From Deltaproteobacteria bacterium (lineage in GTDB: Bacteria; Desulfobacterota; Desulfomonilia; Desulfomonilales; Desulfomonilaceae): a stretch of DNA of 59,853 bases. The stretch is taken from positions 1 through 59,853 of the forward strand of contig JAPLJJ010000088.1 of the NCBI GenBank assembly GCA_026388665.1, written 5' to 3'. The notes below the pieces were generated by a model. It was given only the letters and a program-made list of their open reading frames with translations, did no database searches and was not told the origin of the DNA. Position numbers and translations under genes: made by a program. This document shows, in pieces, positions 40,278 to 41,812 of this stretch (position 1 is its first letter; every line of letters begins with the position of its first letter).

Positions 40278-40481
40278 TCAGGAATGTCCCTTGGATCCAG
40301 AGGATCCGCACGACGAACTCAATCTTTTTTCAATCCCCGTATGAGCAAATACTGAAAAACTTTTCTTCGTTCGTTCACTTTCGCATGAAGGACATTTCAC
40401 TGGATCATCGCATTCAGATATAAAGAATATACGTTCGAACTGCCGCCCACAATCCTCGCATTCGAATTCGAATATAGGCAT
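40278..40481 (-). CDS. FmdB-family zinc ribbon protein
   Basis: MPIFEFECEDCGRQFE...CPSCES. Confidence 0.85.
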   Translation of the reverse strand: MPIFEFECEDCGRQFERIFFISECDDPVKCPSCESERTKKSFSVFAHTGIEKRLSSSCGSSGSKGHS

Positions 40482-40493
40482 TTCAAATCCCCA

Positions 40494-40790
40494 TTAACTG
40501 CAACTGCAACCTTCACCGCAAGCAGCCCCTGCTAATTCAGCCGTCGGTCCGAAGATACTCGATTTGATTTTTAAACCGCCGGATTCTTTTATCATTTTCA
40601 TCGCGAAAGGATCAACGATGATCGGCAATTCGTTAACAGTGTAATGTTCGTCACCTTCTTTAGGCTCATCCAGAGCCAACCCCATGCTGGGGCCGCCTCA
40701 ACCATAGCCGCCGAAAAACACTCTCAGAGACTGACTAGCCTCAAGTTTTTCTTGTAGAAATTTTTTTGATTCGTCATCTATCGAAAACAT
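40494..40790 (-). CDS. HesB/IscA-like selenoprotein (UGA at 40700..40698 read as Sec)
   Basis: MFSIDDESKKFLQEKLEASQSLRVFFGGYGUGGPSMGLALDEPKEGDEHYTVNELPIIVDPFAMKMIKESGGLKIKSSIFGPTAELAGAACGEGCSCS; continuous frame except one TGA at the conserved metal-ligand Cys position. Confidence 0.88.
40663..40677 (-). promoter_or_regulatory. putative bacterial SECIS apical hairpin
   Basis: GGCTC-TGGAT-GAGCC perfect 5-bp stem starting 20 nt downstream of the UGA, GG in loop. Confidence 0.6.
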
Positions 40791-40874: not shown

Positions 40875-41468
40875 TTATTTTTTAGGGCCGGGGTCTGAAC
40901 TCTGGTCGTCGTTCACGATCTTGATTTTATGTGAGTTCTGTTCCTGTTGGGCTGATGGAGGAACAGGATATTCCAGTTTGGGATCCCCAGTAATTCTATG
41001 AGATTTTTTCTTGTTGGTCACCTTGGAATTTTCTGGATGTTCCGACCGAAGATCACGCGAATTTGATGAGTTCGAAACCTGAAGTCGTTTGATCGTGTCC
41101 TCCAACTTGGAGAATATCTCAGATTGTCCCATTAACACGATGTCGCCAACTATCACGAGTGGTACCGCAAACTTCATAGGGCTATGAGTCGCCTCAATTT
41201 TGCAGAAAAGATCGTAGTCGTCAGGCCGATTGATATCAAAGATCTTTGTCTTGATTGGAAGTTGAGTTTTCAGATCGTCAACCAGTTCCTTAACGTTTTC
41301 ACAGAAAGGACATTCAGACGATTCAAAAAAAGTCACCACAATTGTTTTGTCTAAATCTGAATTGCTTTCGGACGAGGCTTGAGCTAACCCAACGCTGAAT
41401 AACAAACAACTCAGGATGATGAAATTTGTTAAAACGAAACTGTATCTAAAGCATTTTTTTTGATTCAT
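40875..41468 (-). CDS. exported glutaredoxin/thioredoxin-fold protein
   Basis: Signal peptide; SSECPFCENVKELVDDLKTQ; cis-Pro FAVPLVIVGD. Confidence 0.8.
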   Translation of the reverse strand: MNQKKCFRYSFVLTNFIILSCLLFSVGLAQASSESNSDLDKTIVVTFFESSECPFCENVKELVDDLKTQLPIKTKIFDINRPDDYDLFCKIEATHSPMKFAVPLVIVGDIVLMGQSEIFSKLEDTIKRLQVSNSSNSRDLRSEHPENSKVTNKKKSHRITGDPKLEYPVPPSAQQEQNSHKIKIVNDDQSSDPGPKK

Positions 41469-41812
41469 TTCTTTACTGGGGTGAGTTTCGATGGAATTGG
41501 GTAATGTAGGTTGACATTCTTATGGGTCCTAAAGCCACAAGCTTCTCTCTGTATCAGTAACCAGCGTAAAGCATCTTCAGCTTTATCTACTAAAGCGTTA
41601 TACTCCCTAATATGCTTGTTAAGGTTTACAAGCTTGGTAGACGCGTTTCCAGGGTCGATCTGGTACGTGTGCATCAATTCCATAGCCATTGATCTTGCGT
41701 CATGGGCTTTTGTCAGCAGGTTATCCAGGATGACGCCGGTATTGCCGAGACCTTCTGCCATCTCTTTGACAAATTCGATTTCGCATTCGGAGATGTCGCG
41801 GCTGATACCCAT
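41465..41812 (-). CDS. hypothetical helical protein, coupled (ATGA overlap) to 40875..41468
   Basis: 115-aa ORF overlapping the next start by 4 nt. Confidence 0.6.
   Translation of the reverse strand: MGISRDISECEIEFVKEMAEGLGNTGVILDNLLTKAHDARSMAMELMHTYQIDPGNASTKLVNLNKHIREYNALVDKAEDALRWLLIQREACGFRTHKNVNLHYPIPSKLTPVKK

Follow-up and report, generated by a model that had tools for sequence, protein, structure and literature searches.

Does the in-frame TGA in a short minus-strand gene of a Desulfomonile-like deltaproteobacterium end the protein, or is it read as selenocysteine (Sec), and what would such a protein do? The gene lies in a 59,853-nucleotide stretch of DNA that was analyzed as a whole (contig JAPLJJ010000088.1; hereafter the window). 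A preliminary description, made from the sequence alone, took it for a HesB/IscA-like selenoprotein gene of a family that was probably not new. HesB-like selenoproteins have indeed been published: 11 members were counted in 2006, with Deltaproteobacteria and Clostridia among their hosts (PMC1794560), and they are listed as TIGR01911 with the motif UxGP (PMC13188914). In Methanococcus, a HesB-like selenoprotein was identified by mutagenesis and 75Se labeling; its disruption caused no nitrogen-fixation defect, and the role of the protein was called unclear (PMC11097638). A literature search for Desulfomonile selenoproteins returned no paper.

Results

A HesB/IscA-like reading frame contains one conserved TGA

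The gene, referred to here as HesB-U, occupies positions 40494..40790 of the minus strand, where 98 codons and a stop run in one frame from the ATG at 40790 to the TAA at 40496..40494. The TGA at 40700..40698 is the sole interruption. Re-reading the sequence returned the start, TGA, and joined frame exactly as first noted, and the mechanical ORF list does hold just a 63-aa piece (40494..40685) for this gene. Read through, the product is MFSIDDESKKFLQEKLEASQSLRVFFGGYG-U-GGPSMGLALDEP...GEGCSCS, or in full, Sec included, MFSIDDESKKFLQEKLEASQSLRVFFGGYG-U-GGPSMGLALDEPKEGDEHYTVNELPIIVDPFAMKMIKESGGLKIKSSIFGPTAELAGAACGEGCSCS. It has 98 residues with the predicted Sec at residue 31, and the TGA (40698..40700, minus strand) falls in a GUGGP motif that fits the published UxGP (PMC13188914). 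The gene assignment is based on this frame, the family match, the presence of the TGA in 17 family genomes, and dN/dS.

Of the 18 genomes from the window's family (Desulfomonile-like), 17 contain HesB-U, each with the TGA; the single genome that gave no match is 82% complete. The codon was invariant in the 30 HesB-U sequences examined (30/30), and relatives from genomes of the same class and phylum mostly contain it too. Compared with same-genus relatives, dN/dS was 0.04-0.11 upstream and downstream of the TGA alike, and synonymous changes were close to saturation; the downstream part is therefore likely to be translated in the same frame. A split-gene reading of the locus was rejected, given that the TGA is kept across the family and dN/dS is low on both sides of it.

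If the TGA were a true stop, the locus would be a pseudogene undergoing decay or would contain a sequencing error, and one relative does look like this: the copy in genome G012 (L007, about 1591-1625) has a TAG 11 codons past the TGA and a broken hairpin, and is probably a dead gene or an assembly error. For HesB-U itself, however, 17 separate assemblies, as well as distant homologs, retain the TGA, and dN/dS is still about 0.1 downstream of it; this full conservation makes a pseudogene or an error implausible and very unlikely.

A hairpin downstream of the TGA is frozen at synonymous sites

Downstream of the UGA lies a candidate bacterial SECIS element (bSECIS), the hairpin UGGCUC-UGGAU-GAGCCU (40662..40678, minus strand). 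Published rules for bacterial SECIS elements give a loop of 3-9 nt with a G in loop positions 1-2, located 16-37 nt from the UGA, and a stem of 4-16 bp with a minimum free energy of at most -7.5 (PMC13188914). The HesB-U hairpin falls within all of these ranges, with a 5-nt loop (UGGAU) carrying G at position 2, a loop start 25 nt past the UGA, a 5-bp stem, and a folding energy of -8.8 kcal/mol when folded alone. In 30 homologs, the element (UGGCUC-UGGAY-GAGCCN) spans nt 20-36 past the UGA, again with 25 nt separating UGA and loop.

Codons inside the hairpin are frozen (Ala GCT, 29/29; Leu CTG, 29/29; Glu GAG, 28/29). Gly, Leu, and Arg codons near it vary freely, and synonymous sites elsewhere are near saturation. 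Standard pairs made up 94% of the hairpin pairs, compared with 16-52% when the pairing was slid; RNAalifold found the same helix unprompted, and one homolog has a compensated change from a C-G to a U-A pair. In the Bacillaceae HesB homologs the hairpin is identical despite about 38-44% protein identity over the matched stretch. Covariation of the pairs is weak by itself (25 of 500 shuffles were as good) because the columns barely vary. The single-sequence folding z-score of the region was -1.1, not significantly better than shuffles, and an Rfam scan of the hairpin region matched no SECIS family; the SECIS assignment therefore rests on the frozen synonymous sites and the homologs. A SECIS search downstream of the UGA, as first proposed, thus returned a conserved hairpin, though one without an Rfam match. 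A second hairpin just 5' of this element (GGCCCC-AGC-AUGGGG side) was considered as the core and rejected: RNAalifold retained only two of its pairs across homologs.

The genome encodes the selenocysteine machinery

A search for the Sec genes, also proposed in the preliminary description, found the complete set in the genome: selA (584 bits), selB (400 bits), selD (360 bits), and selC, a tRNA-Sec with a UCA anticodon (68 bits), each over its cut-off. The selD gene has one in-frame TGA of its own (L047, 1501-2424), so SelD is probably a selenoprotein itself.

At the site aligned with the HesB-U Sec, Cys (GCSG, SCCG) is found in paralogs that adjoin Sec copies elsewhere in the phylum, and also in an archaeal homolog. 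Trp occupies the site in a second HesB paralog of Desulfomonile relatives (L051, L052, L053, L054, and L059), where the codon is TGG within GGWRGP. In these Trp paralogs the loop and 5' arm of the SECIS element remain (GGCTCTGGAT), and the 3' arm is gone; they branch in a region of the tree rich in Sec proteins. The half-kept SECIS and the tree position together suggest that they arose by a Sec-to-Trp change.

The Trp paralogs raise the question of whether reassignment or suppression could make the UGA of HesB-U itself a tryptophan codon. Of 36 long ORFs examined in the window, 17 end in UGA. The codon is an ordinary stop there, and the code is therefore not reassigned. The genome also has full Sec machinery with a UCA-anticodon tRNA-Sec, the bSECIS hairpin is conserved, and the other non-Sec homologs seen have Cys at the site, which leaves decoding as Trp scarcely credible. 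Close relatives lacking both Sec and Cys at this position had been named at the outset as counter-evidence to a selenoprotein; some distant paralogs do carry Trp there, but these fall outside the HesB-U clade. With the sel genes and tRNA-Sec, the conserved hairpin, and Cys at the site in homologs all supporting the initial selenoprotein reading, we consider it very probable that translation of this HesB-like selenoprotein gene inserts Sec at the UGA at 40700.

HesB-U is a divergent branch of the HesB-like selenoproteins

The best family matches of HesB-U were to two selenoprotein models, NCBIfam NF038090 IscA_HesB_Se (46.4 bits, E=3.8e-12; curated cut-off 85) and TIGR01911 HesB_rel_seleno (42.5 bits, E=7.3e-11; cut-off 66.35), and neither cut-off was reached. 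Scores against the general carrier models were lower and also below cut-off: 25.8 bits for TIGR00049 (58.8 required), 19 bits for PF01521 (Fe-S_biosyn; 26.3 required), and a weaker match to ErpA. All 16 clade members matched the HesB family, and the UxGP motif was present in 30 of 30 aligned homologs with U. Two other HesB selenoproteins that were scored both exceeded the NCBI cut-off.

A profile of 16 family members matched the solved A-type carriers HI1723 and AQ_1857, and the alignment puts Sec opposite the Cys in GCSG. The AF2 model of HesB-U (pLDDT 86) had IscA, AQ_1857, HI1723, and SufA as its best PDB folds, at moderate Foldseek TM-scores of 0.5-0.6. The UGA had been placed at the Cys-ligand position of IscA/HesB/ErpA proteins, and Cys does stand there in the HesB paralogs and the solved IscA/ErpA relatives. 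The accompanying claim, that the C-terminal GEGCSCS keeps the other Cys residues, holds for the window gene but not uniformly for the clade, in which the C-terminal Cys pattern is irregular; this weakens a strict three-ligand model.

In the tree, all 16 Desulfomonile-family proteins form one clade (support 100/99), loosely near the Bacillaceae selenoproteins and apart from most other HesB selenoproteins. Named records of clade proteins come from Desulfomonile, other Desulfomonilaceae, or deltaproteobacterial MAGs. The clade shares with the HesB-like selenoproteins of TIGR01911 and NF038090 the IscA/HesB fold, Sec at the first Cys ligand, UxGP, a hairpin directly past the UGA, and anaerobe hosts. 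Although related, it scores below both curated cut-offs and so lies outside the models as drawn, and it differs in conserved stretches of its own (VFFGGYGU, VDPFA, and FGPxAEL) and in its gene neighborhood. On these sequence comparisons, HesB-U is a divergent branch of the HesB-like selenoproteins. With the A-type carriers IscA, SufA, and ErpA (PF01521, TIGR00049) it shares the fold and the position of the Cys in GCSG, but it has Sec for Cys, UGGP for CSGx, an irregular C-terminal Cys motif, and scores below the curated cut-offs, and thus departs from the carrier pattern of three Cys ligands (GCSG ... CGC). By description, Methanococcus maripaludis MMJJ_08070, the 75Se-identified protein, is likewise a Sec-containing HesB homolog (PMC11097638), set apart from bacterial HesB-U by its archaeal SECIS and Sec pathway.

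Relatives of HesB-U in a plasmid collection were found only in Bacillaceae. HesB-like selenoprotein genes lie inside arsenic resistance operons in Neobacillus cucumis (L095, around 3001) and on Cytobacillus plasmids (L105, L110, L111); they directly follow a dual-specificity-phosphatase-like gene and precede arsR (in most, arsI as well). The TGA and an identical SECIS hairpin were checked and are present in L095 and L105, and selB occurs in both Neobacillus genomes. These genes are unlisted in the annotation, and we found no paper on HesB selenoproteins in arsenic operons.

Gene order around HesB-U is conserved

An FmdB-family zinc ribbon gene (40278..40481, minus strand; TIGR02605, 56.9 bits against a cut-off of 31.3) lies 12 nt downstream of HesB-U and is adjacent in all 16 relatives examined; it is probably in the same operon. 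Upstream, at 40875..41468 (minus strand), is a gene for a glutaredoxin (Grx)/thioredoxin-fold protein with a CPFC motif, assigned from weak Glrx-like/Glutaredoxin matches below cut-off. The protein has an N-terminal hydrophobic, signal-like stretch (read by eye), and its CxxC is retained in 15 of the 15 relatives that have the gene. The gene for a conserved protein, p115 (41465..41812, minus strand), overlaps the start of the Grx-fold gene; no NCBIfam or Pfam profile matched p115 above cut-off, and synteny holds for it in 15 of 16 relatives. Beside a divergent p302 gene, the arrangement p115, CxxC Grx-fold protein, HesB-U, FmdB recurs in 15 of 16 relatives, and the sixteenth retains HesB-U and FmdB. 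The conserved order favors the functional link first proposed between HesB-U and its zinc ribbon and exported Grx-fold neighbors, but direct contact is doubtful: a partnership between the Grx-fold protein and HesB-U is uncertain because the former appears exported and the latter has no visible signal peptide.

Among the 18 family genomes (8 are at least 90% complete), none gave a PF01521 (IscA/SufA/ErpA) protein above the Pfam cut-off, whereas such a protein was found in 9 of 14 control genomes. Because the first step of the search is loose, the absence of an A-type carrier is suggestive only.

Discussion

By our reading, SelB with tRNA-Sec would decode the UGA at 40700, guided by the bSECIS hairpin directly downstream, to give a small, apparently cytosolic protein of the IscA/HesB fold. 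Its Sec would substitute for the first of the three Cys ligands of A-type carriers, and the C-terminal CSC could supply the others. In a lineage whose genomes gave no canonical A-type carrier above the Pfam cut-off, Sec31 and the C-terminal cysteines may then bind either an Fe-S cluster or a soft metal(loid) and hand it on under anaerobic conditions. We put forward this carrier function tentatively, at slightly under even confidence.

HesB-U could instead be Sec-decoded and yet serve no Fe-S carrier role, acting in thiol/selenol redox chemistry or in the handling of metalloids such as arsenite or selenide, perhaps partnered by the neighboring CxxC protein and zinc ribbon. The irregular C-terminal Cys pattern and the arsenic-operon setting in Bacillaceae keep this alternative alive; conservation of the Grx-fold CxxC neighbor in 15 of 16 relatives and the Methanococcus disruption mutant, which lost no nitrogen fixation (PMC11097638), are also consistent with it. 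The IscA fold, in which the first ligand lines up with the one in IscA relatives, and the apparent separation of an exported Grx-fold protein from a HesB-U lacking a signal peptide speak against it, and we regard it as possible without favoring it.

Systematic mis-calling of the gene, as first suspected, is plausible given that the clade scores under the curated cut-offs; no gene is listed for the copies on Cytobacillus plasmids either, but that gene table is incomplete. Current curated models miss the clade, and genomes can be expected to carry a truncated ORF or nothing in its place.

As judged from sequence, the HesB-U clade is a new divergent member of the already published HesB-like selenoproteins, and it adds a conserved branch to this selenoprotein family. 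A broader proposal, which we consider speculative and rather unlikely, is that in the Desulfomonile family a selenoprotein took over the role of the A-type carrier, which would make iron-sulfur or metalloid trafficking selenium dependent, and that the arsenic-operon copies of Bacillaceae would suggest a clade-wide role linked to metalloids. The conserved neighborhood and the Bacillaceae arsenic operons provide testable leads on the function of the family.
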